Assembly: GCA_011391635.1 (NCBI GenBank)
Contig: JAABQD010000023.1
Span: 1 to 47,645 of the forward strand
Direction of reading: 5' to 3'
Length of the DNA: 47,645 bases
Origin: Sulfurimonas sp.
GTDB taxonomy: Bacteria > Campylobacterota > Campylobacteria > Campylobacterales > Sulfurimonadaceae
In this document: in pieces, positions 714 to 47,580 of the stretch
Numbering within the stretch: position 1 is the stretch's first letter
Layout: each line of letters starts with the position of its first letter
Position numbers and translations under genes: made by a program
The notes under the pieces: generated by a model
What the model saw: only the letters and a program-made list of their open reading frames with translations
What the model was told of the DNA's origin: nothing
Databases searched by the model: none

Positions 714-3218
714 ATGGATTTATTACTGCAAATCGAAGATATTATAGAAAAAAACGGTTCCGATTTTGAACTCTCCAAGCTTTTCAAAGCTTACATTAAT
801 GAATACAAAACCTCACTTCCAAAACTTTTTGAAAGTTCTCAGGGCAAAGATTTTTTAGTAAAACACACTAAAAAACTTGATTCCATTATCTCTCTTATGT
901 ACAAGGTAACACTTCGAAGAATTTTTGGCAATTATATTCCTATGAGCAGTTCCATTCCAATCGCGGTTGTAGCCCTTGGAAGTTATGGACGGGAGCAGTT
1001 ATGCGTTCACAGCGACATTGATTTGATGATAGTGTATGAAAAAGTCGATGGTTACAACACACAACTCATCATCGAAAAACTCTTCTATTTGGCACTCGAT
1101 GCGGGTCTCAAACTCGGTCACAGAGTCCATGTGACAAACGATTTGTTCAAAGCAAGTGGAGAGGATATCACTATTCGCACCTCTTTGATGGAGTCGCGAT
1201 TTATCATCGGTTCGCCCTACACTTGGCATGCAACACAAAAACAACTCAACAAAATCCGTCTCTACAACCAAAAAGAGTTCATTCTAGCCAAGGTAGAAGA
1301 GGCACAGATTAGACGCAAAAAATATCCGACTTCTATGCAACCAAACATCAAAGAGAGCGTAGGCGGACTTCGTGATACACAGCTTCTTTTTTGGGTCGCA
1401 CAAACCATCTATGGCGTCGGCAATCTCAGAGAACTCAGCCAAATTCTCTTTAGTGATGAGGAGTACAAAGAGTATCGCATAGCTTTGGAACTTCTTTTTC
1501 GTGTGCGAAGTGCTTTACATCTCATTACTAACAAGCAAGAGGACAGACTTTTATTTGATTTAATGCCTCAAGTAAGTGCCATGTTGGGCTTTAGAGATGA
1601 AAGGAAAATGGCTTCTAAAGTGCTTGAAGCACAGTGGCGAATCAGCAACTTTTCACAGATATTTGTCAAAAAAATGGTGCGACCATTTCTCGTGGATATG
1701 CAAAATTTTTCTACCTTTAGAAGCCATCGTTTACGCAAAGGGATTTATGAATATGATGCAAGACTTTTTGCCTCATTTAATCTCAAAATTCAGCCAATCA
1801 ACACGCTTTTGGAGTTGTTAGTCTCCCTGCCAGACAAAGAGTATAATTTTGACGCAGGTTTTTTAAACCAATTTACCTACACAAAAATCGCCCATCCTCT
1901 GAATCAAAGAACTTATACGCTCATAAAAGAGCTTCTCAAAAGAAAACATATGTACTTCTTTTTGAAACTTTTTTATGATGCTGGAATCCTCCATGAGATA
2001 TTTTCAAACTTTAGAAAAGTGATGCATCTTCCACAGTTTGATGGCTATCACACCTACCCTGTGGATATTCACTCGATTCGATGTGTCAAAGCCTTAGAAA
2101 ATATTCAAGAGCCTTTTATTCAAACTCTCTATGATGAGCTGAATGATGAGGAAAAACTTCTTCTCAAAGTGGCTGTGCTGTTGCATGATTCAGGAAAAGG
2201 TCGCAAACAAGACCATAGCGAGGTGGGTGCAAAACTCATCGTTCCTTTTGCAAAACATCTCAAACTCAAACCAGAATCTATTGAAAGAGCGGTCATACTT
2301 ATCAAAAATCATGTCCTTATGAGCAGTGTTGCCTTCAAAGAGAATATTCATAATGAGAAAACACTTTATAGTTTTATGTCAAACATACACGATGACAAAA
2401 ATTTAAAACTGCTTTACATCCTCACTTATGCTGATATCAACGGTGTGGCTGGAGACACTTACAACTCATTTAACTCTAAACTCCTTCTTGATTTGTACAA
2501 AAGTGCCCTCGAAGTTTCGCAAAACTCTAATAGAATTACGGATGCGACAAAAAGGTTAAATATAGAAAAAAGAGTTCAAGCCCAAGAGGAGTTCAAAGCA
2601 CTGCCAAAACTTTTACAAACGAAAGTTTTACGCATAGAGTCAAATCTCTTCTTTTTTAAACACCAAATTCGTGACATTATCTGCATTGCGACCAAAGCAA
2701 ATGAGACCAAAGAGTACAATTATAGTATCACTGCAAATGGCTCTTTAACCATTGAGATTTACAGAAAAATTCCACTCAATATCGGCTATCTCCTTGCCAC
2801 TCTTGCACATCTTGATGTCGGTTCCATGGAGATTATCACGCTCTTTGACAACATAAAATACTTCAAAATTGAATTTGTCAAAAATGTTGAAGGGGATGAG
2901 CTTATAGAGGTAGAAGAGATTATCAAAAAAGCTTTTGATATGTCGCGGCATGTGGAATTAAAAAATATTCATATCACAAGAAAAGAGATACATATAGATT
3001 GCGAACATTCACTTACACATGCCGAACTCACAGTCCATACAACCAATCAAAGGGGACTTTTGGCATACATCATGAACTGTTTTGAAGAGCTTAAAATCAA
3101 TATTGTCACAGCAAAAATACACACCACAAAAAACAGGGTCAGAGACAGTTTCTTAATGGAAAAACAAAACGATATATGCCATAATGTCGAACATATTTAT
3201 AAATTATTGACAAACTAA
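714..3218 (+). CDS. glnD: Bifunctional uridylyltransferase / uridylyl-removing enzyme (PII nitrogen sensor)
   Basis: This 834-residue protein uridylylates and deuridylylates PII in response to glutamine and so controls nitrogen assimilation. The nucleotidyltransferase motif GSYGREQLCVHSDIDLMIVY is near residue 90, followed by the family signature ESVGGLRDTQLLFW near 210. An HD phosphohydrolase domain (VAVLLHDSGKGRKQDHS) is near 485. Two ACT-like regions close the protein, the last containing LTVHTTNQRGLLAYIMNCFEE. An in-frame TTG at 675 would add 13 residues, but the -10 box at 680-685 argues for the ATG at 714. Length is slightly under the usual 850-890. It is 15 bases upstream of glmS, so the two are likely cotranscribed. 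Confidence 0.93.
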   Translation: MDLLLQIEDIIEKNGSDFELSKLFKAYINEYKTSLPKLFESSQGKDFLVKHTKKLDSIISLMYKVTLRRIFGNYIPMSSSIPIAVVALGSYGREQLCVHSDIDLMIVYEKVDGYNTQLIIEKLFYLALDAGLKLGHRVHVTNDLFKASGEDITIRTSLMESRFIIGSPYTWHATQKQLNKIRLYNQKEFILAKVEEAQIRRKKYPTSMQPNIKESVGGLRDTQLLFWVAQTIYGVGNLRELSQILFSDEEYKEYRIALELLFRVRSALHLITNKQEDRLLFDLMPQVSAMLGFRDERKMASKVLEAQWRISNFSQIFVKKMVRPFLVDMQNFSTFRSHRLRKGIYEYDARLFASFNLKIQPINTLLELLVSLPDKEYNFDAGFLNQFTYTKIAHPLNQRTYTLIKELLKRKHMYFFLKLFYDAGILHEIFSNFRKVMHLPQFDGYHTYPVDIHSIRCVKALENIQEPFIQTLYDELNDEEKLLLKVAVLLHDSGKGRKQDHSEVGAKLIVPFAKHLKLKPESIERAVILIKNHVLMSSVAFKENIHNEKTLYSFMSNIHDDKNLKLLYILTYADINGVAGDTYNSFNSKLLLDLYKSALEVSQNSNRITDATKRLNIEKRVQAQEEFKALPKLLQTKVLRIESNLFFFKHQIRDIICIATKANETKEYNYSITANGSLTIEIYRKIPLNIGYLLATLAHLDVGSMEIITLFDNIKYFKIEFVKNVEGDELIEVEEIIKKAFDMSRHVELKNIHITRKEIHIDCEHSLTHAELTVHTTNQRGLLAYIMNCFEELKINIVTAKIHTTKNRVRDSFLMEKQNDICHNVEHIYKLLTN
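2947..2957 (+). repeat. Dispersed uptake-like motif, copy in glnD
   Basis: GGCATGTGGAA with GC instead of TT in front. Read in the frame CAT-GTG it encodes Arg-His-Val-Glu of GlnD. Confidence 0.8.
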
Positions 3219-3233
3219 ACAAAGGCTTGAGAT

Positions 3234-5048
3234 ATGTGCGGAATCGTTGGATATATCGGAAATAAAAATACAAAAGAGATTCTGCTTGATGGACTAAAAG
3301 AGTTGGAGTACAGAGGTTATGATTCTGCTGGGATTGCCGTACTCCAAGGGGATACTTTTGAGAGTTTCAAAGCTGTTGGAAAACTTATAAATTTAGAAGA
3401 AAAAACCAAAGATTTCATAACAGACAGGTTTGCAGTCGGTATCGGTCACACACGCTGGGCAACACACGGAAAACCGACAGAACTCAACGCACATCCGCAT
3501 TTAGGGGAAAGTTCTTATGTCGTACATAACGGCATTATAGAAAATTATGCTGAGCTCAAAAAAGAGTTGATGCATAATGGCGTCACTTTTTTAAGTCAAA
3601 CAGATACAGAGGTTATTGTCCATCTTTTTGAAAAAAATCTTAAAACTTCCTCCTCTGCTTTTGGGGCTTTTAGCCAAACTATCAAAGAGATTGAAGGGGC
3701 GTATGCTATTTTGCTTGTCACAAAATCTGAGCCTGACTCTATCTTTTTTGCAAAACATGGCTCACCTATGATACTTGGCAAAAATAGCGAAAACGAGAAC
3801 TATTTTGCTTCCTCAGATACACCGCTCATCGGTCAATGCACAGATGTAAACTACTTTGAAGATGGTGATTTTGGGTATGTAAATCCTCAAGAAATCGCCA
3901 TTTTTGACAAAAATGAAAACAAAAAAGAGCCAAATTTTTCTAAACTCTCCACAAATAAACTCTCCGCTCAAAAAGATGGCTTTCGATTTTTTATGGAAAA
4001 AGAGATTTATGAGCAAAGCGTGGTCATCGCCGATACTTTGATGGGAAGAGTGAGTGAGAGTGAAGTCCTTTTTGATGAGCTAGATGCCAACCTTTTTGAT
4101 GGTATAAATGAGATAAAACTTTGTGCATGTGGAACTTCTTATCACTCGGCTTTGAGTGCATCCTACCTCTTTGAGCGATACGCAAAAATAAAAACTTCCG
4201 TGGAAGTAGCAAGTGAATTTCGCTACCGCCAACCCATCATGACAAAAGATACTCTTTTTGTAGTCATTTCACAAAGTGGCGAAACAGCAGACACTTTGGA
4301 AACTCTTAAAATGGCAAAAGAAGCAGGACTCAAAACTCTTGTTATCTGTAATGTGGACAATTCCTCTATGGTTCGCCTTGCAGATGCAACTGTCTTGACA
4401 AGAGCGGGAATAGAAAAAGGGGTGGCATCTACAAAAGCTTTTGCAACGCAAGTGACTGTTTTTTGGATGCTCACGCTTTTTGTTGCGAAACTTCGCAATA
4501 CTCTTACAAATGAAGAAATTGCGAAACAAATTATACTCCTTCGCGAAGTTCCAGCTTCTGTAAAAGTCACAGATTCTATGCATGAAAGAATTAAAAGATT
4601 ATCCAAAAGATACCTTCACGGGCATGGCTTTTTCTTTATAGGCAGAGATATATTTTATCCTCTTGCACTCGAAGGTGCATTAAAACTCAAAGAGATTTCT
4701 TATCTTCACGCTGAGGGATATCCAAGCGGAGAGATGAAACACGGTCCTATCGCACTTGCTGACCCAGAACTCTTTACAATTGCCCTGCTTCCACAACATC
4801 TTTTGTATGAAAAAGCAAAAAGCAATGTCGAGGAACTCAGTGCAAGAGACTCAACTATCTGTGTTATTAGTGCCTTAGAATTTGACAAAGCAGATGACTT
4901 TATTCAGATTTCCACATGCCAAGATTATATGCTTGAGTTTTTTGAGATGATGGTTGTAGTGCAACTTCTCTCTTTAGAGATTTCAATTCGACTCGGAAAT
5001 GATGTAGATATGCCACGAAACTTAGCAAAAAGTGTTACAGTAGAATAA
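3234..5048 (+). CDS. glmS: Glutamine-fructose-6-phosphate aminotransferase (isomerising)
   Basis: This 604-residue cytoplasmic enzyme makes glucosamine-6-phosphate from fructose-6-phosphate and glutamine, the first step to UDP-GlcNAc for peptidoglycan and lipid A. The N-terminus MCGIVGYIGN supplies the catalytic Cys2 of the type II glutamine amidotransferase domain, and LEYRGYDSAGIA follows. Two SIS sugar-isomerase domains occupy the second half: CGTSYHSAL and SQSGETADTLE near 300-350, then EGALKLKEISYLHAEGYPSGEMKHGP near 480-505. The end, DMPRNLAKSVTVE, is the conserved tail. It starts 15 bases after glnD. Confidence 0.96.
   Translation: MCGIVGYIGNKNTKEILLDGLKELEYRGYDSAGIAVLQGDTFESFKAVGKLINLEEKTKDFITDRFAVGIGHTRWATHGKPTELNAHPHLGESSYVVHNGIIENYAELKKELMHNGVTFLSQTDTEVIVHLFEKNLKTSSSAFGAFSQTIKEIEGAYAILLVTKSEPDSIFFAKHGSPMILGKNSENENYFASSDTPLIGQCTDVNYFEDGDFGYVNPQEIAIFDKNENKKEPNFSKLSTNKLSAQKDGFRFFMEKEIYEQSVVIADTLMGRVSESEVLFDELDANLFDGINEIKLCACGTSYHSALSASYLFERYAKIKTSVEVASEFRYRQPIMTKDTLFVVISQSGETADTLETLKMAKEAGLKTLVICNVDNSSMVRLADATVLTRAGIEKGVASTKAFATQVTVFWMLTLFVAKLRNTLTNEEIAKQIILLREVPASVKVTDSMHERIKRLSKRYLHGHGFFFIGRDIFYPLALEGALKLKEISYLHAEGYPSGEMKHGPIALADPELFTIALLPQHLLYEKAKSNVEELSARDSTICVISALEFDKADDFIQISTCQDYMLEFFEMMVVVQLLSLEISIRLGNDVDMPRNLAKSVTVE
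4910..4922 (-). repeat. Dispersed uptake-like motif, copy in glmS
   Basis: Perfect 13-base copy TTCCACATGCCAA, the reverse complement of the consensus. It encodes Ser-Thr-Cys-Gln of GlmS in a poorly conserved stretch before the C-terminal helices. Confidence 0.85.
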
Positions 5049-5060
5049 TTTTTTATAATT

Positions 5061-6977: not shown

Positions 6978-7009
6978 TTCCACATGCCAAGATTTATTGG
7001 CATGTGGAA
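6978..7009. terminator. Inverted pair of uptake-like motifs, hairpin after the diguanylate cyclase gene
   Basis: TTCCACATGCCAA (6978-6990), loop GATTTA, TTGGCATGTGGAA (6997-7009): a perfect 13-bp stem starting seven bases after the stop codon. No long T-tract follows. The position between convergent genes suits a bidirectional terminator. Confidence 0.75.
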
Positions 7010-7049: not shown

Positions 7050-7079
7050 TTACACATGCCAAGAAGTTGGCATGTGGAA
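7050..7079. terminator. Second inverted pair of uptake-like motifs, at the 3' end of mrp
   Basis: TTACACATGCCAA (7050-7062), loop GAAG, TTGGCATGTGGAA (7067-7079). The left arm differs from consensus by one base. It lies 12 bases beyond the mrp stop codon on the opposite strand, so each convergent gene has its own motif hairpin. Confidence 0.7.
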
Positions 7080-8336: not shown

Positions 8337-9722
<1,386 letters not shown>

Positions 9723-13143: not shown

Positions 13144-13647
13144 ATGAACTGGTTTTTTATCACACTTGGTTACAGTGGACTCGCTCCAAAAGCTCCGGGG
13201 ACTGCTGGGAGTGTTGTAGCTCTTTTTCTTGGCATGTGGATTCTTATTGCATTTGATGCACAGACTCTTTTTCTTGCTTCGCTTTTGGTGAGCGTTATCG
13301 CTATCAAATCTATCAACAAATATGAAGAACAAAGCGGTATCCACGACGACAAACGCATTGTGATAGACGAACTCGCTGGAATGTGGTTTGCCCTGAGTGT
13401 TGCTCCTGCTATCACGATTAGCTTCAGTGAACTTGGCATGTGGGAAAATGGATTTTTAGTTCAAAGCATTTTGTCTTTTGTGCTTTTTCGCTATTTTGAT
13501 ATCACAAAACCATCTATTATCGGAAGAATCGATAGAGAAATGCAAGGTGGTTTAGGTGTCGTTGGCGATGATGTTTTGGCTGGATTTGTCGCTGGAATCA
13601 TGAGTGCGGTTCTCTGGCAAGGGGTTGTCGCACTTCAAGGATTGTAA
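13144..13647 (+). CDS. pgpA: Phosphatidylglycerophosphatase A
   Basis: A 167-residue membrane protein that dephosphorylates phosphatidylglycerol phosphate. Family signatures are GLAPKAPGTAGSVVAL near the N-terminus, DDKRIVIDELAGMW near 75-88 and the end motif GGLGVVGDDVLAGFVAGI. Three to four hydrophobic segments are visible. It starts seven bases after sat. Two uptake-like motifs lie in it, both read as Leu-Gly-Met-Trp. Confidence 0.92.
   Translation: MNWFFITLGYSGLAPKAPGTAGSVVALFLGMWILIAFDAQTLFLASLLVSVIAIKSINKYEEQSGIHDDKRIVIDELAGMWFALSVAPAITISFSELGMWENGFLVQSILSFVLFRYFDITKPSIIGRIDREMQGGLGVVGDDVLAGFVAGIMSAVLWQGVVALQGL
13229..13239 (+). repeat. Dispersed uptake-like motif, first copy in pgpA
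   Basis: TTGGCATGTGG followed by AT, in frame as Leu-Gly-Met-Trp inside a membrane helix of PgpA. Confidence 0.8.
13433..13443 (+). repeat. Dispersed uptake-like motif, second copy in pgpA
   Basis: TTGGCATGTGG followed by GAA, again read as Leu-Gly-Met-Trp, 204 bases after the first copy and in the same frame. Confidence 0.8.
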
Positions 13648-14366: not shown

Positions 14367-15128
14367 TTATTGTCCTTTTACTGTTTTATATGCTTTATCT
14401 GCTAATTTTTCAATCATATCATCGTAGCCTCTATAGTTTGCTCCAAGCTCTTTGGCTCTTGATTTGAGCGGTGAAAACTCTTTGGAATTTTTCATATCAA
14501 AATTGTACAGAGGAAGTTTTGCGATGCCCTCGAGATCGCTCATATCTGAAAAATCAAGGAGAGCATCAAACCCTGATAAATCGACCTCAAGACCCTTTGC
14601 CAAACGATTCAAATCTGCATCTTTTAGCTCCACTTCTTGGCAAAATTGCATCAATTCTTCGAGACTCTCATCAAAATAGCTCACACTAAATCCACATGCC
14701 AAGAATGAAAAAACTTTGGCATGTGGAGTTGTTCCTATCATCGCAATTTTAGAACATCGCAAATCTTTGAGCTCTTCGAGCAACACTCGCATTCCAAAGA
14801 GTTCTCCACGGAGTTTTTCGCCCTCACGAAAGACGATATCGCACATGCCACTGCGTTTTACCAGAGCAGAAGCTTCATCAAGAATTTCTACAGCGTTATA
14901 CGCATATTCATTGGAAATAATCGCACCATTCAGTTGTGATTTTTTCATATTTGAGAGAGTAAAATAAAAATCATCCTCGCGAATATTCATCGGAATCATC
15001 ATAGCGTTATCGCCATGGGATTTAAAAATTTTATTCAAAACTGCACTCATATGACTTGCACCAGCATGTTCGCCTATAAAACCGTAGAGTTTTGTCTCTT
15101 TGGATATCTCATTGGCATTGTTCATCAT
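14367..15128 (-). CDS. AroE (shikimate dehydrogenase)-like protein lacking the catalytic lysine
   Basis: About 253 residues. The N-terminus (KLYGFIGEHAGASHMSAVLNKIF) and LNGAIISNEYAYNAVEIL resemble the start of shikimate dehydrogenase, but the catalytic Lys of the usual TVPFK/TIPYK motif is missing (SNEYAYN). A Rossmann-like centre follows (CSKIAMIGTTPHAKVFSFLACGF). It is therefore probably a paralogue with another job. It overlaps the upstream ferredoxin gene by four bases (ATGA) if the ATG at 15128 is used; ATG at 15125 or TTG at 15143 are alternatives. The neighbours (TorD-like chaperone, polyferredoxin) tie it to redox-enzyme maturation. It contains an inverted pair of uptake-like motifs. 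Resemblance to AroE is weak and by eye. Confidence 0.6.
   Translation of the reverse strand: MMNNANEISKETKLYGFIGEHAGASHMSAVLNKIFKSHGDNAMMIPMNIREDDFYFTLSNMKKSQLNGAIISNEYAYNAVEILDEASALVKRSGMCDIVFREGEKLRGELFGMRVLLEELKDLRCSKIAMIGTTPHAKVFSFLACGFSVSYFDESLEELMQFCQEVELKDADLNRLAKGLEVDLSGFDALLDFSDMSDLEGIAKLPLYNFDMKNSKEFSPLKSRAKELGANYRGYDDMIEKLADKAYKTVKGQ
14691..14727. repeat. Inverted pair of uptake-like motifs inside the AroE-like gene
   Basis: TCCACATGCCAA (14691-14702) and TTGGCATGTGGA (14716-14727) form a 12-bp stem with a 13-base loop within coding sequence. On the coding strand the copies read as Thr-Pro-His-Ala-Lys and Leu-Ala-Cys-Gly. Confidence 0.8.
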
Positions 15129-16225
15129 TCCTTTATCCCCCAAAGCTCTCTGGCTTCTTCCTCTTCTGCTTTACATCTATAACAGAGTGATTCGCCCGAA
15201 TTTGTACTGAAAATCACCCCGCACTCATTGCATCTTTTGACATTGAATGTTACCAAATTTTGCACTTTTGGCTCAAAAAACTCTTTGATATTGTACGACG
15301 CAGAGAGTGTAATCGCATTTGGCACACACGCATCATGACAAATATTGCATTTGATACATAAAAAAGGGTCAAAATCTATCTTGGAGTTTTTGACATCTGA
15401 GCTCAAAGCACCTGTTGGACAGACGCGATAGCAGATTTGACACGCTGTACAACTCTCTTTATCCATCAATTTTTGGGAAGTAAATGAGACTTCATTTGCC
15501 TCCACCACATGAAAAACCGAAGGCTTTTGTACTCTTTTGATTGCTGTAAAAAAGAGTTTTCGTTTGTGAGGTATTCTCTTTTGTTTGAGCAGTGCGATAT
15601 CTGCTTTTTGCAGGGAATGCTCGATTAACTCATCGGTCGCTTTTTTTATCTCTTTTTCAAAATCATTTCTCGTTTTTGCAATTCCAGCAAGATTCAAAGA
15701 GCGAAAAAAGTCTCTTCTGTTGCTCTCCTCTGGTTGGCTTTCATCTTTATAGCAAAGGTTCTCTAGTCTCACTATCGCCTTATTTTCCATTGCTTCTAGC
15801 AAATACGAAGCCTCTTCATGGTTGCGTAGGATTTGGGCTTGGCATGTGGAAGCGATTTCGCACTCCGCACAGTACCCCATATCAAAAACTATCTCTTTTT
15901 TGAGTACCGCTAAAGAGATGAGATGCTCTACACTCAAAGCCACGATACAAGGAACATTTTTACGACAGGAGATGATATTTTGCGTATCTTCTATAAAATC
16001 AAAAAAGAAATCCGTAGCCTTAAAATCATCCAAAGAGAGGGCTTCATTTGGGCAAATTGCATCACACGCTCCACACCCTACACATGCCGAAAAATTAATA
16101 GCTGGAAGAGGATTTGCACCTACGACTATCGCTGCAGTTGGGCAGATGATTTCGCATTTATTACATGCACTCTCTTTGCTCAAGGAGCGAACACATAGTC
16201 CTACACTCAGTTGGATAAGTGACAT
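15125..16225 (-). CDS. Multi-cluster 4Fe-4S ferredoxin-type protein
   Basis: A 366-residue cytoplasmic protein with several cysteine sets: CVRSLSKESACNKCEIICP near residue 11; CVGCGACDAICP near 47-58; CAECEIASTC near 118; CTACQICYRVCP near 258; CIKCNICHDACVP near 290; and a C-terminal zinc-ribbon-like CNECG...CYRC. This suggests about four [4Fe-4S] clusters that pass electrons. It lies three bases after the TorD-like gene and overlaps the AroE-like gene, in an operon resembling accessory genes of formate dehydrogenase or other molybdoenzymes in Campylobacterota. Partner enzyme not in the window. One uptake-like motif encodes Ser-Thr-Cys-Gln, so it helps supply one cysteine. Confidence 0.85.
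   Translation of the reverse strand: MSLIQLSVGLCVRSLSKESACNKCEIICPTAAIVVGANPLPAINFSACVGCGACDAICPNEALSLDDFKATDFFFDFIEDTQNIISCRKNVPCIVALSVEHLISLAVLKKEIVFDMGYCAECEIASTCQAQILRNHEEASYLLEAMENKAIVRLENLCYKDESQPEESNRRDFFRSLNLAGIAKTRNDFEKEIKKATDELIEHSLQKADIALLKQKRIPHKRKLFFTAIKRVQKPSVFHVVEANEVSFTSQKLMDKESCTACQICYRVCPTGALSSDVKNSKIDFDPFLCIKCNICHDACVPNAITLSASYNIKEFFEPKVQNLVTFNVKRCNECGVIFSTNSGESLCYRCKAEEEEARELWGIKE
15839..15851 (+). repeat. Dispersed uptake-like motif, copy in the ferredoxin gene
   Basis: Perfect TTGGCATGTGGAA, antisense to the gene, encoding Ser-Thr-Cys-Gln of the protein. Confidence 0.85.
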
Positions 16226-16937: not shown

Positions 16938-16983
16938 TTTCCACATGCCAAGCTTGGCATGTGGAAATCTTTTTGGCATGTGG
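16938..16983 (-). terminator. 30-bp perfect palindrome of two uptake-like motifs plus a third copy, downstream of gdhA
   Basis: TTTCCACATGCCAAG (16938-16952) abuts CTTGGCATGTGGAAA (16953-16967) as a perfect palindrome. A third copy TTGGCATGTGG ends at 16983, four bases before the gdhA stop codon. It sits exactly where a gdhA terminator is expected, before the TorD-like gene's promoter region. No strong T-run follows on the minus strand. Confidence 0.75.
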
Positions 16984-21890: not shown

Positions 21891-21919
21891 TTCCACATGC
21901 CAACTCCTCCACATGCCAA
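21891..21919 (-). repeat. Two direct copies of the uptake-like motif in the frdC/22028 divergent region
   Basis: TTCCACATGCCAA (21891-21903) and TCCACATGCCAAG (21908-21920) in the same orientation, 16 bases apart. The 210-bp region 21818-22027 holds promoters for both neighbours (TATAAT-like boxes around 21860-21866) and no other gene. Unlike the other intergenic groups these copies are not inverted, so they cannot form the terminator hairpin. Confidence 0.8.
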
Positions 21920-28276: not shown

Positions 28277-28287
28277 GGCATGTGGAA
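28277..28287 (+). repeat. Dispersed uptake-like motif between the 27850 gene and the CZB chemoreceptor
   Basis: GGCATGTGGAA preceded by GT, a single intergenic copy without an inverted partner. The remaining region to 28442 holds only an AT-rich promoter-like stretch (TATTAT near 28410) for the chemoreceptor gene. Confidence 0.75.
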
Positions 28288-33012: not shown

Positions 33013-33788
33013 TGTTTAGTTTTTTCAAAAAGAAAGAGCCAGTAATCGAAGAAAAATATGTAGAAATTGTAGAAGATTATACAGATATTATGCCCATCGC
33101 TCAATATTTTAAGAATGAAACTGGCGTCACTTTTGACAAACAAATGAGCATCTTAAAAAGTAAAGTAATCACTTTTTGCAAACAAAGAGAGATCCACTCA
33201 TTTACAAATCTTTTGAATACTGTAAACACAAATAGACAAATCAAACAAGAGTTGATCGACGCTTTAACAACAAATGAAACATTCTTTTATAGAGAGTTTC
33301 AACAAATCAAAGAGCTAGTAAAGCTTGTCAAACAAAGTAACCGGCATGTGGATATTTTATGTGCTCCTTCTGCAACGGGAGAAGAGCCATATAGTATCGC
33401 TATCGCTCTTTTAGAAGAGGGAGTTTCACCTAGTGATTTTCACATCATTGGCATAGATATTAATGCAGATGCCATCCAAAAAGCAGAGGAAGCAATCTAT
33501 AGAGAGAGAAATGTAAGAAATTTAACACCTCAAATCATAAGCAACTATTTCAGTTACAACGATGGAAAGTATCTTTTAAACAACACCATCAAGACACTTG
33601 TAAGTTTCAAAATTGCCAATATTTTTGATAGCTCTTTTAAAGATTTAGGAAAATTTGATTTTGTTTTTTCAAGAAATATGCTTATCTATTTTGACAAAGA
33701 GACAAAACTCAAAGCAAAAGAGATTTTAGAAAGTATGCGAAAAACATCTGAAAATGCTGTTTTTTTTGGACATGCTGACCTTTTTTAA
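33012..33788 (+). CDS. cheR: Chemoreceptor methyltransferase CheR
   Basis: About 258 residues. It transfers methyl groups from SAM to receptor glutamates. Motifs: LTTNETFFYREFQQIKEL (CheR N-terminal/catalytic link), ILCAPSATGEEPYSIAI (SAM-binding), IIGIDINADAIQKAEEA and FDFVFSRNMLIYF. The ATG at 33012 overlaps the cheB stop; TTG at 33003 is an alternative. The protein ends abruptly at GHADLF, and its stop codon lies at the edge of the foldback element, so the last residues may have been replaced by that insertion. Confidence 0.92.
   Translation: MFSFFKKKEPVIEEKYVEIVEDYTDIMPIAQYFKNETGVTFDKQMSILKSKVITFCKQREIHSFTNLLNTVNTNRQIKQELIDALTTNETFFYREFQQIKELVKLVKQSNRHVDILCAPSATGEEPYSIAIALLEEGVSPSDFHIIGIDINADAIQKAEEAIYRERNVRNLTPQIISNYFSYNDGKYLLNNTIKTLVSFKIANIFDSSFKDLGKFDFVFSRNMLIYFDKETKLKAKEILESMRKTSENAVFFGHADLF
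33343..33351 (+). repeat. Dispersed uptake-like motif, copy in cheR
   Basis: GGCATGTGG with CC before and AT after, one of the least-extended copies. It encodes Arg-His-Val. Confidence 0.7.
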
Positions 33789-35671: not shown

Positions 35672-36145
35672 TTACAAAAGTGATTTAATAACATTACTCA
35701 CACCTTGGTGCAAGTTATAGCTTGAAATAGGAAAATCTAAAGATTCATCTTGTAAGTTGATATTGTATCGTGCAAGATATGCACCCAAGAGTTCTACTGA
35801 AATAATTTCATACTCTTGGCATGTGGAACTGTCATACTTTGTTCTAAGTAGTTTCCCTGCTTCGTTTGATTTTTGGAGTGTAAACGCCAAAGTTTTCAGA
35901 CTTACCAAATCATGAAAACTCAAAAACAATTCAGGAGTAAGCTCAGACACAGGAGCACCCTCAGGAGTAAAAAGCATATTTTTCTCTCGAAGCGGAATAA
36001 GTACACTCAAGATAGCTTCTGTAAAAGGAACCACTTTATCCCCCCAAAAAGGAGATTCATTTCTCTTTTGTAACTCTATCTCTATTGTCTTTGTAATCGT
36101 TGCAACATCACTGTTTTTAAATAGTTCATAACTCTTTTGTGTCAT
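35672..36145 (-). CDS. Hypothetical helical protein upstream of the ModA-like gene
   Basis: A 157-residue protein starting MTQKSYELFKNSDVATITK, without signal peptide. It contains the helical stretch VVPFTEAILSVLIPLREKN and LTPELFLSFHDLVSLKTLAF. No family recognised. The ATG at 36145 was chosen over one at 36250, because the longer form would overlap the divergent DUF445 gene. An uptake-like motif supplies Ser-Thr-Cys-Gln. Confidence 0.65.
   Translation of the reverse strand: MTQKSYELFKNSDVATITKTIEIELQKRNESPFWGDKVVPFTEAILSVLIPLREKNMLFTPEGAPVSELTPELFLSFHDLVSLKTLAFTLQKSNEAGKLLRTKYDSSTCQEYEIISVELLGAYLARYNINLQDESLDFPISSYNLHQGVSNVIKSLL
35816..35828 (+). repeat. Dispersed uptake-like motif, copy in the 35672 gene
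   Basis: Perfect TTGGCATGTGGAA, antisense to the gene, encoding Ser-Thr-Cys-Gln. Confidence 0.85.
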
Positions 36146-37667: not shown

Positions 37668-37678
37668 GGCATGTGGAA
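37668..37678 (+). repeat. Dispersed uptake-like motif over the znuA start codon
   Basis: GGCATGTGGAA, preceded by AT. The GTG start codon of znuA (37673-37675) lies inside the motif, and AAAGGA ends two bases before it. Confidence 0.8.
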
Positions 37679-40114: not shown

Positions 40115-41538
40115 AAAGATTTCTCCTCCTCTTTTTACTCTTACAAACACTCCTTTTTGGATGTGCCACATGCCAACTAATGGTTCCAACAGCAGAACTC
40201 CATATAGATTTACAAACCAAAGAGAACCGTATCAACAATATCCGTATGGAGTGGCATTTTTCAGACCTCTACTCAGATGAAATGATTAATCAATATGATA
40301 AAAATCAAAACAAAGTTTTGGATAAAAACGAACTCGATGTTATTCTCAAGGCAATGCTAGTCTATCTCAAACCAAAAGAGATGCTCACAAAAATTCAATA
40401 TGCAAAAAATGACACCAATGCCACCACACCAATCAAACCTGAGTACAAAAATTTTACAATTGCGATGACAGATGGTTTTCTTGTTTTTACTTATGACTCC
40501 AATGTCAATCTAGCGATTGAGGATAAATCCTCTTTGAGTCTCTCTTTTGAAGATAATGAGTCCTATTTTGCTTTTGTTGCTACAAAGATAAATGTAGGCG
40601 AGAGCCAGTTTGCTCATACAGAGAATCTCTACCTCTTCACTGCTTCTGTACTTTTTTCCCACATGCCAACACAAAATGCAGTTGCACCAAAAGAGGAGAT
40701 TAAAAAAGTTCAAGAGCTGAGTCAAACCAAAGTCACAGAAGTGCAAATGCCAAAAGAGGAGACATTCCAAGCAAATATTCTCAAAGAGAGTATTACTAAA
40801 ATCAAATCTCTTTTTGAATCTATCAAAGATGAAAAAAATCCGCTCACTTATCTCTTTTTACTCTTTTTTGCTTATATTTATGGAGTCATTCACGCTCTTG
40901 GACCAGGGCATGGAAAAACACTTGTGGCTAGTTACTTTTTAAGCAATGAACGCTCCTACTCCAAAGCTCTCTTTGTCTCGTTGGCAATCGGTGTTGTTCA
41001 CACCTTCTCAGCTTTTATTTTGACTCTTATAATTTACTTTTTTGTCAATACATTTTTAGCACAGTTTTTAAATGATGCTGTTTTTTACACAACAAAAATC
41101 TCAGCCCTGATTATTATTCTCATCGCTTTGTACCTCATTTATAAAAAGTATAAAGCGTATAAACTCATAGCAAATAGCAAAAAAAGTAGTGAATTTACAT
41201 TTAGTACCACTCCACATGCCAATACATGTGGATGTGCTTCGTGCAAGGTCGATACAAACTCTACGGATATGGCACTCATCATCTCCGCTGGAATCATCCC
41301 CTGCCCTGGAACTGTTACTATTTTTATCTTCTCGCTCTCGCTTGGTTTGTATTATGCGGGATTTTTATCGGCTTTTGTAATGAGTCTTGGTATGAGTACC
41401 ATCATCTTTTTCTCAGCTATCCTCAGTGTAGCTATCCGTAAAAAAACTCTCAATACAAACTCAAATCTCAAAAAATATTTAGAATATGGAAGCTTATCGG
41501 TTATACTCATCCTAGGGTTTGTTTTACTCTTGGCATAA
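40111..41538 (+). CDS. DUF1007-NicO fusion metal permease
   Basis: About 475 residues. A signal sequence (FLLLFLLLQTLLFG) precedes CATCQLMVPTAELHIDL. A periplasmic DUF1007-like domain (residues 20-230) contains a canonical EF-hand loop, DKNQNKVLDKNEL. Six helices follow, with the NicO/RcnA signature YGVIHALGPGHGKTLVASYF near 275-295 and CPGTVTIFIFSLSLGL later. The loop before it has CGCASC and histidines. RcnA-type proteins move Ni/Co; coupling with znuACB suggests zinc or a related metal here. The ATG at 40111 overlaps the znuB stop by four bases and is preferred over a start inside znuB. Three uptake-like motifs lie in the gene. Confidence 0.82.
   Translation: MKRFLLLFLLLQTLLFGCATCQLMVPTAELHIDLQTKENRINNIRMEWHFSDLYSDEMINQYDKNQNKVLDKNELDVILKAMLVYLKPKEMLTKIQYAKNDTNATTPIKPEYKNFTIAMTDGFLVFTYDSNVNLAIEDKSSLSLSFEDNESYFAFVATKINVGESQFAHTENLYLFTASVLFSHMPTQNAVAPKEEIKKVQELSQTKVTEVQMPKEETFQANILKESITKIKSLFESIKDEKNPLTYLFLLFFAYIYGVIHALGPGHGKTLVASYFLSNERSYSKALFVSLAIGVVHTFSAFILTLIIYFFVNTFLAQFLNDAVFYTTKISALIIILIALYLIYKKYKAYKLIANSKKSSEFTFSTTPHANTCGCASCKVDTNSTDMALIISAGIIPCPGTVTIFIFSLSLGLYYAGFLSAFVMSLGMSTIIFFSAILSVAIRKKTLNTNSNLKKYLEYGSLSVILILGFVLLLA
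40166..40176 (-). repeat. Dispersed uptake-like motif, first copy in the DUF1007-NicO gene
   Basis: CCACATGCCAA preceded by TG, encoding Ala-Thr-Cys-Gln just after the signal sequence. Confidence 0.8.
40659..40669 (-). repeat. Dispersed uptake-like motif, second copy in the DUF1007-NicO gene
   Basis: CCACATGCCAA preceded by TTC, encoding Ser-His-Met-Pro. Confidence 0.8.
41212..41222 (-). repeat. Dispersed uptake-like motif, third copy in the DUF1007-NicO gene
   Basis: CCACATGCCAA preceded by CT, encoding Pro-His-Ala-Asn before CGCASC. A near-copy in the other orientation (ACATGTGGA) follows within ten bases. Confidence 0.8.
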
Positions 41539-41559: not shown

Positions 41560-42336
41560 ATGAAAATTGATGGACGATTTTGGCTTACAAAAAAAGGAGA
41601 GAGTTTTTTAGGTTCGGGAAGAATCGAGCTTCTTGAGAGAATCCAAAAAACAGGTTCCATCCATGCCGCAGCAAAAGAGATGAAAATGAGCTATAAAGCC
41701 GCATGGGAGCGAATCAATAGCATGAATGCTCTGGCAGATGAGCCAATTATAACAAGAACAATCGGGGGAAAAGGGGGTGGCGGAACAGTTCTCACACCCT
41801 ATGCACACGAACTTATCGCCACATACAACCGTTTTAATGAGCTTCATCGTCAATTTATAGACCGCTTTGCAGAAGCTGGAGATGACCCAGAGAAGTTAGC
41901 AAGAATTCTGAGTAGAACTTTTTTAACAACAAGTGCAAGAAACCAACTTCCATCCAAAATCAGCGAAATACACTTGAGTGGACTCCAAGCAATCCTTCAC
42001 TTATCCATCGCTGGTGGTGAAACTATTCGCTCAAGCATTACAGCCAAATCAGCTCAGAACATGGGTCTAGCCGTAGGAAGTGACATCTATGCAATCATAA
42101 AATCAAGCGATATCACCATCACAAAAGAGCCTCCACTTCCACATGCCAACAGCAATATCTTGGAAGGAAAAATCAGCTCCATTGAAAATTCTCAAGACTC
42201 CATAGAGATTGGTTTAGCCCTCAGTGAAAACACCACGCTCATCGCTCTTCTCAACACACAAAACTCAAACACATTTGAAGTTGGAGACAAAGCTTACGCA
42301 CTCATCTCCATAAATAATATCATCATAGGTTCATGA
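41560..42336 (+). CDS. modE: Molybdate-responsive regulator ModE
   Basis: A 258-residue protein. The N-terminal LysR-like winged helix shows RIELLERIQKTGSIHAAAKEM and MSYKAAWERINSMN, followed by the ModE signature GGKGGGGTVLTPYAHELI. Two Mop (molybdopterin/molybdate-binding) domains follow at about 125-190 and 195-258: KISEIHLSGLQAILHLSI, and EGKISSIENSQDSIEIGL. It represses molybdate uptake genes when molybdate is bound. It starts 21 bases after the metal permease gene. Confidence 0.92.
   Translation: MKIDGRFWLTKKGESFLGSGRIELLERIQKTGSIHAAAKEMKMSYKAAWERINSMNALADEPIITRTIGGKGGGGTVLTPYAHELIATYNRFNELHRQFIDRFAEAGDDPEKLARILSRTFLTTSARNQLPSKISEIHLSGLQAILHLSIAGGETIRSSITAKSAQNMGLAVGSDIYAIIKSSDITITKEPPLPHANSNILEGKISSIENSQDSIEIGLALSENTTLIALLNTQNSNTFEVGDKAYALISINNIIIGS
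42139..42147 (-). repeat. Dispersed uptake-like motif, copy in modE
   Basis: Core CCACATGCC within a perfect 13-base consensus (42137-42149), encoding Leu-Pro-His-Ala-Asn in the linker between the two Mop domains, a place where sequence is free to vary. Confidence 0.85.
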
Positions 42337-43586: not shown

Positions 43587-43712
43587 AATCTCCATCCTTA
43601 CATTAAATTTTCAAATGCCAAACAAAATAGCATTTAACTTAGAAGTAACATCGTCCATATGTTGTTTTATTTAAATTTAAATAAAAATTTGATAATTAAA
43701 GATTTATTAGGG

Positions 43713-43718
43713 TACAAT
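43713..43718 (+). promoter_or_regulatory. Candidate -10 box for the cold-shock gene
   Basis: TACAAT at 43713-43718 would give a leader of about 130 bases before the ATG at 43857, a long 5' UTR as known for cspA-type genes. Confidence 0.5.
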
Positions 43719-43728
43719 AGTGCCGATG

Positions 43729-43753
43729 AAAGATGAGGCTCGAGTTCATCTTT
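43729..43753 (+). promoter_or_regulatory. Hairpin in the cold-shock gene leader
   Basis: AAAGATGA (43729-43736), loop of nine, TCATCTTT (43746-43753): a perfect 8-bp stem near the predicted 5' end of the mRNA. It may act in mRNA stability or temperature response. Confidence 0.5.
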
Positions 43754-43856
43754 AGTGTGTGATTTTGTATAACTGCTCAATTGTGACCCTAAAGACTCTC
43801 CAATTTTTGACTCCACTTCTTAAATGAAGCGTATTTTAGACAACAAAGGTATTGCA

Positions 43857-44075
43857 ATGGCAGAATTACTAGACGGAACTGTTAAATGGTTCAATGAAGA
43901 AAAAGGTTTTGGATTTATCCAACAAGATAATGGCGGAAAAGATGTATTCGTACACTTTCGTCAAGTAAACAACCCAGGTCATGGTCGTGTTTCTTTAGCT
44001 GAAGGGCAAAAAGTAACTTTCGAACTTGGTGAAGGTCAAAAAGGTCCACAAGCTGAGAATGTAACTCCGCTTTAA
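43857..44075 (+). CDS. Cold-shock domain protein (CspA family)
   Basis: A 72-residue single cold-shock domain with both nucleic-acid-binding motifs: KGFGFIQ (RNP1) and VFVHF (RNP2), after GTVKWFNEE. It binds single-stranded RNA/DNA as a chaperone. The ATG at 43857 is chosen because an earlier in-frame ATG adds a non-homologous 11-residue leader. A terminator hairpin follows ten bases after the stop. Monocistronic. Confidence 0.95.
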
Positions 44076-44084
44076 TCCTAAGCT

Positions 44085-44132
44085 TTTACAGGCCTTGAGC
44101 CTGTAAATTTCTCTAATTTTTCACTTTTTTTT
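44085..44132 (+). terminator. Rho-independent terminator of the cold-shock gene
   Basis: TTTACAGGC (44085-44093), loop CTTGA, GCCTGTAAA (44099-44107), then T-rich DNA including an 8-T run ending near 44132. A 9-bp perfect stem on the coding strand. Confidence 0.85.
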
Positions 44133-44136
44133 CAAC

Positions 44137-45303
44137 TCAATTTTTTAATAAACTTAAACACTCATTTGCAATCTCTTGTTCCTCATCTGTTTTTACAACC
44201 ATAAGCTTAACGCTACTTATTTTGGTGGAAATAATTGTAGCGTTTCTCTTGTTCTGTGCGTAATCGAGTTCAATTCCACATGCCAAAGATTCAAGAACCA
44301 TCTCTCGAATATACGCCGAGTTCTCACCAATGCCACCTGTAAAGACGATAGCATCCACACGACCCAAAAGTGCCATATAGCCACCAATATATTTTTTGAT
44401 TCTACGCACCATCATCTCAATTGCTAGTTGTGATTTTTCATCCCCAAGCTCTATAATCGTTCGGACATCATTATTTTTGCAAATTCCTATCAAACCAGAT
44501 TTTTTGTTAAGAAGTTTATCAATCTCATCAATGCTCATGCCAAGTTCTCTATGGAGATGTATCACAATCGCAGAGTCAATATCGCCACATCGGCTTCCCA
44601 TGATAAGCCCCTCAAGCGGAGTAAAACCCATAGAAGTATCAACACTCACTCCCCCTTCAATCGCACAGGCACTCGAGCCATTCCCAAGATGAAGTGTGAT
44701 GATATTGAGTTCCTCACTCTTTTTTTGTAATATTTCGGCTGTTTGTTTTAGAACAAAAGCATGAGAAGTCCCATGGAAACCATATCTTCGTATCTTATGC
44801 TCTTCATAAAGTTCATACGGAAGAGCATAAAGATACGCCTCTTGTGGCATGTGGGAGTGAAATGCTGTATCAAAAACTGCGATTTGAGGTACATCAGGAG
44901 CTTTTTTCATAGCCACCAAAATACCCTCTAAATTCGCTGGATTGTGCAGAGGTGCGAGAGGTATCAGAGCTTCAATTTTCTCTAGCACACTTGCATCAAT
45001 GAGCGTAGATGTTTTAAACTCCTCCCCGCCATGCACCACTCTATGCCCAATAGCACTCAAAGAGCTAAAATCTTCTAAGATTTCATGCTTGGAGAGAAGT
45101 GAAATAATCTCTTCTAAACCATCATGATGATTTTTGATTACGGAGGTAATAACTAATTTTTTATCTTCATACTCTAAAATTGTGTCAGAGATGAACTCCC
45201 CAATTTTTTCTACCAAAATATGTGCCAATACCTTTTTTTCTGGCATGTGGAAAAGTTGAAACTTTATTGAAGAGCTTCCCGAATTGATAACTGCTATATT
45301 CAT
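44137..45303 (-). CDS. ackA: Acetate kinase
   Basis: A 388-residue ASKHA-fold kinase that interconverts acetate and acetyl phosphate. Motifs: NIAVINSGSSSIKFQLF at the start, IGHRVVHGGE near 90, FDTAFHSHMPQEAYLYALPY near 160, RRYGFHGTSH near 185, and ITLHLGNGSSACAIEGG, then FTGGIGENSAYIRE near 315. The ATG at 45303 overlaps the pta stop by four bases, and begins the conserved first strand; a longer in-frame opening upstream lies within pta and is rejected. Three uptake-like motifs occur in it. Confidence 0.95.
   Translation of the reverse strand: MNIAVINSGSSSIKFQLFHMPEKKVLAHILVEKIGEFISDTILEYEDKKLVITSVIKNHHDGLEEIISLLSKHEILEDFSSLSAIGHRVVHGGEEFKTSTLIDASVLEKIEALIPLAPLHNPANLEGILVAMKKAPDVPQIAVFDTAFHSHMPQEAYLYALPYELYEEHKIRRYGFHGTSHAFVLKQTAEILQKKSEELNIITLHLGNGSSACAIEGGVSVDTSMGFTPLEGLIMGSRCGDIDSAIVIHLHRELGMSIDEIDKLLNKKSGLIGICKNNDVRTIIELGDEKSQLAIEMMVRRIKKYIGGYMALLGRVDAIVFTGGIGENSAYIREMVLESLACGIELDYAQNKRNATIISTKISSVKLMVVKTDEEQEIANECLSLLKN
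44276..44284 (-). repeat. Dispersed uptake-like motif, first copy in ackA
   Basis: Core CCACATGCC within a perfect 13-base consensus (44274-44286), encoding Leu-Ala-Cys-Gly of AckA. Confidence 0.85.
44846..44854 (+). repeat. Dispersed uptake-like motif, second copy in ackA
   Basis: GGCATGTGG with GT before and GA after. It encodes His-Met-Pro within the conserved FHSHMP motif of acetate kinase, so this copy may be explained by the protein. Confidence 0.6.
45242..45252 (+). repeat. Dispersed uptake-like motif, third copy in ackA
   Basis: GGCATGTGGAA preceded by CT, encoding Phe-His-Met-Pro near the N-terminus (residues 18-21), a variable part of the protein. Confidence 0.75.
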
Positions 45304-47384
45304 CTCTGTTGTCCTGCTTGAATTGCTGTAATTGCGACTGTGTTTACGATATCTTCGACCAAACATCCACGACTCAAATCATTGATTGGTTTATTGAGTC
45401 CTTGAAGTATTGGTCCTATGGCTACGGCATCACTTGAGCGTTGTACCGCCTTGTAGGTGTTATTTCCTGTATTTAAATCTGGAAATATAAAAACGGTTGC
45501 ATTTCCTGCCACCTTTGAATTTGGAAGTTTTGCCTGTGCTACATCTTTGTCTATAGCTGCGTCATATTGGATTGGACCTTCCACCAAAAGAGATGGATTT
45601 TGGGATTTGACGATGTTCGTCGCCTCTCGCACTTTATCCACATCCGCACCGCTTCCACTCGCACCAGTCGAGTAAGAGAGCATTGCTACGCGTGGCTCAA
45701 TCCCAAAAGCTGAGGCGGTTTTTGCCGAAGAGAGAGCGATTTGTGCAAGTTCGTTTGCATCAGGGTCTTCATTTACCGCACAATCCCCATACACCAAAAC
45801 TTTTGTACTCAAACACATGAAAAAAACGCTTGAGACGATAGAGATATCAGGAGTTGTTTTGATGATTTGCAAAGCTGGTCGTATCGTATCTGCGGTTGAG
45901 TGCGTTGCACCACTGACCATTCCATCTGCATACCCCAAATGCACCATCATCGTTCCAAAATAGTTGGCATGGCTCATCGCATCTTCTGCTGCTTGATAAC
46001 TCAAACCTTTGGCTTTTCGCATCTCATAGAGTGCTTGGCTAAACTCTTTTGAATACTCAGAGTTTTGATGATCTATAAAAATTGCCTTACTCAAATCCAG
46101 TCCCAATCTCATATAGTTTTCTCTCACTGATTTCTCTTTTCCCAAAAGAATAATATCCGCAACCTCGCGACGCAAAATAATCTCCGCTGCTCTTAAAATT
46201 CGCTCATCATGGCTCTCTGGCAAAACAATTCTTTTTTTATTGAGTCTTGCCGATTCAAAGAGTTTGTATTCAAACATCATAGGCGTTAAAACCGTACTTT
46301 GTGTACTCATAATTTTTGCTTCAATCGCTTTGATATCCACACTTGCGTTAAAAAGTCCAAGAGCAAGAGCGATTTTTCTCCGACTTGAGACTCGCAAACG
46401 CGGTTTGACATTGGATAGATTTTTTGCTGTCTCATAAGTATCTGTTTTGACAGACAAAATCGGTATGTTAAAACCACTCAAACCTGTAATCAATTTATGA
46501 ATGTTTGGATGTTCTCGCATATCAAAAGGAAAAATAATCCCTGTAATATTGGGATAACTCGTAGAGTATAAAGTGCCAATAAGTCCAAGAATAATCTCGG
46601 AACGATCGGCTGCCACGATAATTAAATCATCCTCCTCCACATGGTCTAAAAAATTATCGAGTGTCAGTGCTGCAACTTTGACACCACGGATAATTCGCGT
46701 CACATCTCCATCGTTTAAGACGACAGGTTTGGCATCGAGTCTATCGATAACATCGCCAATTGTAGGCATATCCAACTCTGGAATTTCTCGTAGCAAATAG
46801 GTGCTATACGCATAGTTTTGAAGCTTTTGTTCTAATAATTTGTACTTCTCATCATCAAGACGATTGATGAAAGTTGCAAAATGCGTACACCCTTGGCATG
46901 TGGAATTCTCATTTTCTATAAGTATATTTTCATACGCCTCTTGTGCTGTTATATTTTGAGCATTGATGATATTGATATAGGGAGAAGCAAAATTTTGAGC
47001 GATTTTGATGTTCAAATCATAGCTAATCGTAGAACTCAAATAGGACTTATGAATCCCTTCACAAAGAACAAAATCATACGCACTCTCAAGCTTTTTAAAC
47101 TTGATGATGAGTTCATTTATAAGTTCATTAATCTGATTTTGTGCAATCATGCTCTCAACATATTCCACATCAAAACCATACGCATCTTCATACGCCATAT
47201 CCAACTTATATTTTTCTAGCATAAACGATATATCGCCATCTTCAACATTTTTAGAAAAAATAACAGGACGAAAAAAAGCAACTCTATGAAGATTTCGCTT
47301 CAAAATCTCCATCATCCCCATAGAGACAAAAAGTGTCCCCGCACTCATCTCCTGAGCCGAAATATATAATGATTTTATTTTCAT
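45300..47384 (-). CDS. pta: Phosphate acetyltransferase (long form)
   Basis: A 694-residue enzyme that makes acetyl phosphate from acetyl-CoA, or the reverse for acetate activation. Three parts: an N-terminal DethioBiotin-synthase-like P-loop region (residues 1-200), a DRTGG domain (about 210-320), and the C-terminal PTA_PTB catalytic domain (about 365-694) with RIVLPESHDERILRAAEI, YADGMVSGATHSTADTIRPAL, MLSYSTGASGSG and GNATVFIFPDLNTGN. Size matches the E. coli-type long Pta. First gene of pta-ackA; its promoter must lie in 47385-47572. Confidence 0.95.
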   Translation of the reverse strand: MKIKSLYISAQEMSAGTLFVSMGMMEILKRNLHRVAFFRPVIFSKNVEDGDISFMLEKYKLDMAYEDAYGFDVEYVESMIAQNQINELINELIIKFKKLESAYDFVLCEGIHKSYLSSTISYDLNIKIAQNFASPYINIINAQNITAQEAYENILIENENSTCQGCTHFATFINRLDDEKYKLLEQKLQNYAYSTYLLREIPELDMPTIGDVIDRLDAKPVVLNDGDVTRIIRGVKVAALTLDNFLDHVEEDDLIIVAADRSEIILGLIGTLYSTSYPNITGIIFPFDMREHPNIHKLITGLSGFNIPILSVKTDTYETAKNLSNVKPRLRVSSRRKIALALGLFNASVDIKAIEAKIMSTQSTVLTPMMFEYKLFESARLNKKRIVLPESHDERILRAAEIILRREVADIILLGKEKSVRENYMRLGLDLSKAIFIDHQNSEYSKEFSQALYEMRKAKGLSYQAAEDAMSHANYFGTMMVHLGYADGMVSGATHSTADTIRPALQIIKTTPDISIVSSVFFMCLSTKVLVYGDCAVNEDPDANELAQIALSSAKTASAFGIEPRVAMLSYSTGASGSGADVDKVREATNIVKSQNPSLLVEGPIQYDAAIDKDVAQAKLPNSKVAGNATVFIFPDLNTGNNTYKAVQRSSDAVAIGPILQGLNKPINDLSRGCLVEDIVNTVAITAIQAGQQR
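46895..46903 (+). repeat. Dispersed uptake-like motif, copy in pta
   Basis: Core GGCATGTGG within a perfect 13-base consensus (46893-46905), antisense to pta, encoding Ser-Thr-Cys-Gln in the N-terminal regulatory domain. Confidence 0.85.
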
Positions 47385-47400
47385 GTGTACCTTAGGATTG

Positions 47401-47452
47401 TTAAGATTTTATAAGTATATCAAAAAGAGGTTGGCATGTGGAAACTAAAAAC
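47401..47452 (+). repeat. 52-bp direct repeat, copy A, containing an uptake-like motif
   Basis: Starts TTAAGATTTTATAA and ends TAAAAAC, with TTGGCATGTGGAA at 47431-47443. It matches copy B with six mismatches by eye. It lies in the pta upstream region. Confidence 0.8.
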
Positions 47453-47528
47453 AGCAATAATACAATTATAAATATTTTAAGTTTTGTAAGAAATTCAATG
47501 ATTTACTACTCATGATTTGCCTAAGTTC

Positions 47529-47580
47529 TTAAGATTTTATAACTCTATCAAAATGAACTTGGCATGTGGAAATTAAAAAC
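47529..47580 (+). repeat. 52-bp direct repeat, copy B, containing an uptake-like motif
   Basis: Same start and end as copy A, 128 bases further, with TTGGCATGTGGAA at 47559-47571. Its last eight bases overlap the stop and final codons of the outer-membrane protein gene. Between the copies (47453-47528) I see nothing but AT-rich sequence. Confidence 0.8.

Follow-up and report, generated by a model that had tools for sequence, protein, structure and literature searches.

To our knowledge, DNA uptake sequences have been established in two proteobacterial families, both of them mostly host-associated. In the Neisseriaceae, eight dialects of the DNA uptake sequence (DUS), all with a CTG core, occur in 943 to 5,918 copies per genome (PMC3630211). 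The uptake signal sequence (USS) of the Pasteurellaceae comes in two dialects; its proposed receptor is ComN/PpdA, a FimT-like pilin put forward partly because of its co-evolution with the dialect (PMC12616744). FimT of Legionella pneumophila binds DNA and matters for transformation (PMC8897410), and this binding, via an arginine-rich electropositive patch, is termed non-sequence-specific (PMC12616744). The subject of the present analysis is GGCATGTGG, a 9-base word scattered over contig JAABQD010000023.1 (positions 1 to 47,645; this whole stretch of 47,645 nt is called the window) of a draft genome of Sulfurimonas sp. (GCA_011391635.1, here G000). The closest named relatives by GlmS are for the most part Sulfurimonas isolates and metagenome-assembled genomes, in keeping with this genus. 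The word is very probably a DNA uptake sequence, a self-tag by which, through a surface pilin, naturally competent cells would favour the DNA of kin over other DNA.

The original prediction listed 30 exact copies of this word in the window, and all 30 were recovered, 19 on the plus and 11 on the minus strand, against 0.12 expected; the highest count among 100 shuffled windows was 2. The excess continues beyond the window, as G000 (2.35 Mb, 84 contigs) contains 1,393 copies (696 and 697 by strand) versus 1 and 2 copies of the reversed pattern. A detailed sample of G000 consisted of the window and 19 readable stretches, together 416,903 bases including 1,483 Ns (the 415-kb sample); one further 1.5-kb stretch was N only. 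The sample carries 253 copies, where Markov orders 1, 2, 3 and 4 expect 1.1, 1.6, 1.3 and 3.6, and GGCATGTGG is its top over-represented 9-mer (order-3 expectation 1.28). Orders 5, 6 and 7 expect 48, 161 and 240 copies, values that are high because the motif itself feeds the long-word counts. The over-representation is real beyond reasonable doubt. The word is not palindromic, and its fuller consensus in the sample is approximately TTGGCATGTGGAA: with the first G as 0, A is found at +9 in 94% and at +10 in 69% of the 253 copies, and T at -1 in 77% and at -2 in 64%. The conserved flanks reported for the window were confirmed as well (of the 30 copies, 24 have T at -2 and 28 have T at -1, and in 19 the core is followed by AA). 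One 20-kb stretch (G000:C2:1-20000) holds 3 copies versus the usual 12 or so; a scan of 10 of its 11 open reading frames (ORFs) of at least 200 aa showed genes of the tricarboxylic acid cycle and other housekeeping functions, and on this gene content its reading as a mobile island was rejected.

With local GC skew as a proxy for replication strand in the window and the 19 stretches of this draft genome, the copies divide into 126 on the G-rich strand and 127 on the C-rich one. The strong replichore bias that would have pointed to a Chi- or KOPS-like role (KOPS, FtsK-orienting polar sequences) is thus absent, as regards both the replication-strand bias of the Chi type and the replichore polarity of the KOPS/FtsK type. 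A Chi-like signal, which would tell RecBCD/AddAB to stop degrading and to start recombination, might be suspected since GGCATGTGG is short, G-rich, asymmetric and abundant and contains GTGG, as Escherichia coli Chi does. Chi is strand-biased, however, inverted pairs touching non-coding DNA are not expected of it, and the palindromic dialects of other Sulfurimonas genomes described below (TTACATGTAA, CTACATGTAG) cannot signal direction; this reading was rejected on the GC-skew split and is very unlikely indeed.

As to genes, 165 of the 253 copies lie entirely within ORFs of at least 80 aa (84 sense, 81 antisense, all six frames used), and 88 are not wholly in such ORFs, while about 12% of the sequence is outside them; the word is denser outside genes than inside. 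Synonymous-codon shuffling reduced the ORF copies from 166 to a mean of 9.7 and a maximum of 17 (10 shuffles). A codon or peptide bias would be in keeping with the lean toward one reading frame of AAACGCAG and TGATGCTAAG, two words from other genomes of the genus, but all eight words tested exceed their synonymous-codon shuffles (e.g. 166 vs 9.7, 54 vs 4.1, 31 vs 2.7, 16 vs 0.8), and this reading, rejected on the ORF and shuffle tests, has a next to negligible probability. The ATGTGG of the motif, read as Met-Trp, yields MWKLKT at both window 47433 and 47561.

Inverted pairs of GGCATGTGG within 40 bp number 13 in the sample, with 11 touching non-coding DNA. The three in the window are predicted to fold into hairpins of about -20 to -22 kcal/mol, and that of the pair 6980/6999 sits between convergent genes. 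Stable predicted hairpins at some intergenic pairs would suit the remains of mobile repeats (repetitive extragenic palindromes (REP) or miniature inverted-repeat transposable elements (MITE)) or a mere transcription terminator element. The information beyond 5 bases either side of the core is, however, at most 0.05 bits per position, so that flanks shared beyond the core, as in REP or MITE, are lacking and the copies have not spread as longer elements; with 165 copies wholly inside ORFs as a further objection, an origin from such elements is exceedingly improbable, and mobile repeats were rejected on the flank information.

The sites are mostly conserved in motif-rich relatives. Of the window sites that could be aligned, those with an exact match number 8 of 9, 5 of 6, 5 of 6, 1 of 2 and 1 of 4 in loci L009, L016, L019, L020 and L026 (20 of 27 in total, with some window sites counted in several relatives), where any aligned 9-mer is exact in 28, 10, 9, 10 and 10%; in L010, from close kin with few copies, they are exact in 0 of 2. 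A signature of erosion is seen in sequences of intermediate motif density, which hold many remnants with one mismatch: for each exact copy, the excess of one-mismatch words is 2.24 in G132 (17 exact), 2.2 in G067 (4 exact), and 1.3 and 1.45 in L010 and L035 (4 exact each), compared with 0.23 in G000 and 0.22 over five motif-rich loci. The low-copy genomes G067, G123 and G026 are placed among motif-rich genomes on the PriA/ComEC trees, and G117 beside G054 and G061. Because of this branching, motif loss appears the simpler reading of the low-copy genomes, the alternative being weak drive at equilibrium. A path from competence loss to motif decay was considered for G132 (99% complete, 226 copies, no ComEC match) and dropped, since an assembly gap is likely there: the neighbouring priA also matched only another helicase, at 27%. 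In a single case, G067 (179 copies), the comEC open frame is only 255 aa long and the upstream part of the gene contains stop codons (L166 ~8359-9108 = G067:C15:23358-24107); ComEC frames of 420 to 438 aa in the low-copy G026, G117, G108 and G131 weigh against such a link.

Across 135 genomes of the genus, GGCATGTGG reaches 411 to 1,427 copies in 11 and 50 to 226 in 8, and has at most 27 in the other 116; TGGCATGTGG has at most 12 copies in each of 93 genomes from 17 other genera of the family. A chromosome-organising site (a KOPS-like, nucleoid protein or segregation signal) would agree with copies spread through the genome. The scarcity of the word in those 116 genomes, many of which have other common words, counts against it, as does the missing replichore polarity, and parS-like sites are few and local; KOPS was rejected on the GC-skew split, and the whole class is extremely unlikely.

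Sister genomes, with which the original prediction had proposed a comparison, have over-represented words of their own, as in known uptake-sequence families; these, AAACGCAG or TTACATGTA/CTACATGTAGA, are unrelated to GGCATGTGG. Screened de novo, the window and 65 of 80 named loci (66 sequences, each 8 kb or longer) yielded AAACGCAG, TCACGCAG (in a clade including S. indica on the GlmS tree, and carried by locus L036 of S. indica NW8N), AACACGCAA, AAACGCCA, TTACATGTA, TGATGCTAAG and, with a loose left side, CATGTGGA. In many screened loci no word emerged, or the words were weak, AT-rich or codon-like, and those ranking highest in L062 and L047 are parts of longer repeat families (GGAATCGGTACTTTAGTGCCG; CGGTGTTAC), unlike the dialect words. 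In one locus (L080), TGATGCTAAG has 16 copies versus 0.11 expected, 9 of them in one sense frame, and no obvious relation to the other dialects. Further words are the sub-dialect CTACATGTAG(A) in G004, G015 and G106 and, weaker, in G008 (sampled among the lower-count TTACATGTA genomes), AACGCCA in G001, a member of the AAACGCAG set, and CAACACC plus ACATGTA in G065; G034 showed no clear word of the dialect kind in the 21 kb sampled. At least two core families are apparent, CATGT (GGCATGTGGA, TTACATGTAA, CTACATGTAGA) and ACGC (AAACGCAG, TCACGCAG, AACACGCAA, AACGCCA), and the TTACATGTAA and CTACATGTAG dialects are palindromic.

Whole-genome counts reach 2,331 for AAACGCAG (reversed control 83) and 1,099 for TTACATGTA, each TTACATGTAA site being counted on both strands. 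At thresholds of 80, 140 and 140 copies, chosen after the counts were known, 18, 29 and 22 of the 135 genomes (69 in total) are rich in GGCATGTGG, AAACGCAG and TTACATGTA, respectively, and no genome passes two of the thresholds; low-copy genomes (85 to 226 copies) account for seven of the 18, and G017 was excluded from this table. The chance of such mutual exclusion, phylogeny ignored, is 0.009 for the first two words and 2.8e-5 for the third. Uneven strands were seen for AAACGCAG in G017 (141 copies, 111/30) and for TTACATGTA in G023 (252/417), perhaps reflecting repeat arrays. A HIP1-like word (highly iterated palindrome) or a methylated word linked to restriction-modification, its abundance set by repair or restriction, would be abundant genome-wide in a subset of species and could include the palindromic dialects, and Campylobacter jejuni judges incoming DNA by RAATTY methylation. 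Words that exclude each other between relatives at these thresholds speak against this, as do copies enriched outside genes and forming inverted pairs; moreover, GGCATGTGG, with 9 asymmetric bases and graded flanks, is unlike common methyltransferase sites and is not the palindromic octamer of HIP1, although the TTACATGTAA dialect is palindromic. HIP1 was rejected on symmetry, and this group of explanations is very unlikely.

On the PriA/ComEC tree of 42 taxa, 6 changes suffice for the three labels together versus a shuffled mean of 20.3, and the supported branches require no fewer than 3 gains or losses of AAACGCAG, 2 of TTACATGTA and 3 of GGCATGTGG, which indicates that the dialect partly tracks phylogeny, with several switches.

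Competence genes are present, with DprA, pilins and a secretin encoded in G000 and ComEC found in 123 of the 135 genomes. Among the pilins, a FimT/GspH-like minor pilin covaries with the dialect once PriA and ComEC distance are corrected for (partial r 0.47, p 0.0002). The two ComEC-linked pilins are uncorrelated with it (partial r 0.035 for pilin2, -0.020 for pilin1), pilin2 shows 11 dialect changes on its own tree vs 5 on the marker tree (30 taxa), and both were rejected as receptors because neither tracks the dialect. The correlation covers these three of the pilins; others belong to a cluster resembling a type II secretion system (T2SS). In pilin1, linked to ComEC and priA (L119:7463-7873, counterparts L122-L141), the first ~33 residues are near-identical in most species and the remainder is hypervariable, which suggests diversifying selection or module exchange. 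In all eight finished genomes examined, the FimT/GspH-like gene is followed, some 0.4 to 0.56 kb downstream, by the 16S gene of an rRNA operon, the operons having been located by Rfam on 12-kb stretches (on four short pieces Rfam found nothing). The pilin has a prepilin N-terminus and, in the structural model, a FimU/GspH fold by a VIA match; Foldseek alone gave no pilin among the best 50 matches listed. This protein is the best receptor candidate, ahead of the other pilins compared.

Taken together, the candidate uptake sequence of the original prediction is supported and is a better fit than its Chi, KOPS, HIP1 and restriction alternatives, and an uptake-sequence system with several dialects in a new phylum is most likely. 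In such a system, which presupposes that these species are competent, the FimT/GspH-like minor pilin would bind the motif in extracellular DNA and a T2SS/type IV pilus-like machine would draw the DNA in, making uptake motif-dependent; ComEC would hand one strand to the cytoplasm, and DprA and recombination would integrate it into the chromosome. Biased uptake and recombination may spread and keep the motif (molecular drive), and altered receptor specificity may start a new dialect.

Several observations weigh against this interpretation. In G000 the ComEC gene is truncated at the edge of a contig (C19:46-690), and a search of this genome gave no clear ComEA, the sole strong HHH_3 match lying within a 702-aa ORF. 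One dialect family of Sulfurimonas is palindromic, and DUS and USS are not known to be. G131, assigned to the TTACATGTA set only, mixes 50 copies of GGCATGTGG with 209 of TTACATGTA, which is below threshold yet not clean. As regards the FimT-like pilin, its net charge past the membrane helix is negative or zero in 22 of 33 species, 4 of 10 TTACATGTA-type genomes fall off the main cluster in its tree (3 of them beside GGCATGTGG types), and the dialect changes required by parsimony tie at 5 on the pilin tree and 5 on the marker tree (same 26 taxa). The ComEC control kept a small residual correlation of 0.146 (p 0.0026, given PriA alone), and at 1e-5 several motif-rich drafts, G049 and G074 among them, had no FimT-like match.

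The wider proposal, to which we give slightly better than even chances, is that a language of self-DNA recognition evolved in Sulfurimonas independently of Neisseria and Haemophilus, with exclusive words of at least two unrelated core families read by a FimT/GspH-like pilin beside the rRNA operon, and that pilin switches change the word and set sexual isolation. If true, this isolation would separate the species within a genus that lives free in the deep sea and in sediments. A literature search of titles and abstracts, with subscription literature and preprints outside it, found no report of an uptake sequence in Sulfurimonas, Campylobacter, Epsilonproteobacteria or Campylobacterota. An independent case in Campylobacterota, with unrelated words in one genus, would show that repeated origin and replacement of uptake sequences are possible. 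As 69 of the 135 species genomes are rich in one of the three main words, the genus would offer a natural series for the co-evolution of receptor and word, low-copy genomes would be decaying cases for measuring molecular drive, and tagged DNA would open genetic access to an ecologically important group.

Copies of GGCATGTGG in the window. Gene names were assigned by eye from ORF translations; conservation is given as exact matches in the motif-rich relatives aligned at that site.
Feature	Position	Strand	Remarks
GGCATGTGG copy	2947..2955	+	within glnD-like ORF; exact in 3/5 relatives
GGCATGTGG copy	4912..4920	-	within glmS; exact in 4/5 relatives
Inverted pair, left arm	6980..6988	-	between convergent GGDEF ORF and mrp-like ORF; predicted hairpin -22 kcal/mol; L009 one mismatch
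Inverted pair, right arm (with 6980)	6999..7007	+	L009 exact
Intergenic copy	7069..7077	+	L009 exact
Copy in 167-aa ORF	13231..13239	+	exact in 3/4 relatives
Copy in 167-aa ORF	13435..13443	+	exact in 2/4 relatives
Inverted pair, left arm, in 258-aa ORF	14692..14700	-	exact in 3/3 relatives
Inverted pair, right arm (with 14692), in 258-aa ORF	14718..14726	+	exact in 3/3 relatives
Copy in ferredoxin-like ORF	15841..15849	+	
Inverted pair, left arm	16941..16949	-	overlaps listed start of TorD-like ORF; predicted hairpin -22 kcal/mol
Inverted pair, right arm (with 16941)	16956..16964	+	
Copy	16975..16983	+	directly after stop of gdhA-like ORF
Intergenic copy, direct pair with 21909	21893..21901	-	
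Intergenic copy, direct pair with 21893	21909..21917	-	
Copy in GGDEF/EAL-like ORF	22100..22108	+	
Intergenic copy	28277..28285	+	
Copy in cheR-like ORF	33343..33351	+	
Copy in 192-aa ORF	35818..35826	+	
Copy	37668..37676	+	across listed GTG start of znuA-like ORF
Copy in 495-aa membrane ORF	40166..40174	-	
Copy in 495-aa membrane ORF	40659..40667	-	
Copy in 495-aa membrane ORF	41212..41220	-	
Copy in modE-like ORF	42139..42147	-	
Copy in ackA-like ORF	44276..44284	-	
Copy in ackA-like ORF	44846..44854	+	
Copy in ackA-like ORF	45242..45250	+	
Copy in pta-like ORF	46895..46903	+	
Copy beyond listed ORFs	47433..47441	+	
Copy beyond listed ORFs	47561..47569	+	

We know of no uptake sequence in C. 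jejuni, where discrimination is by methylation. This naturally transformable species belongs to the same phylum as Sulfurimonas (PMC10046745). The Sulfurimonas pilin appears, by its predicted fold, to be of the same FimT/FimU/GspH type as FimT of L. pneumophila, but, unlike the latter, it is without net positive charge in those 22 of 33 species. The USS of the Pasteurellaceae resembles the present system in the 9 bases of its core, in having dialects and in the proposal of a FimT-like minor pilin as the receptor (PMC12616744), the receptor role of ComN and that of the Sulfurimonas pilin both being predicted only; motif and phylum differ, and so does the position of the Sulfurimonas pilin gene upstream of an rRNA operon. 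Compared with the DUS of the Neisseriaceae, it belongs to another phylum, its motif is unrelated, and at least two core families (CATGT and ACGC) stand in place of the CTG core. The 1,393 copies correspond to the low end of the Neisseriaceae range, and common to both are a core some 10 bases long, copy numbers in the hundreds to thousands, dialects among relatives and a minor pilin, which is the receptor there (ComP) and the candidate receptor here (PMC3630211).

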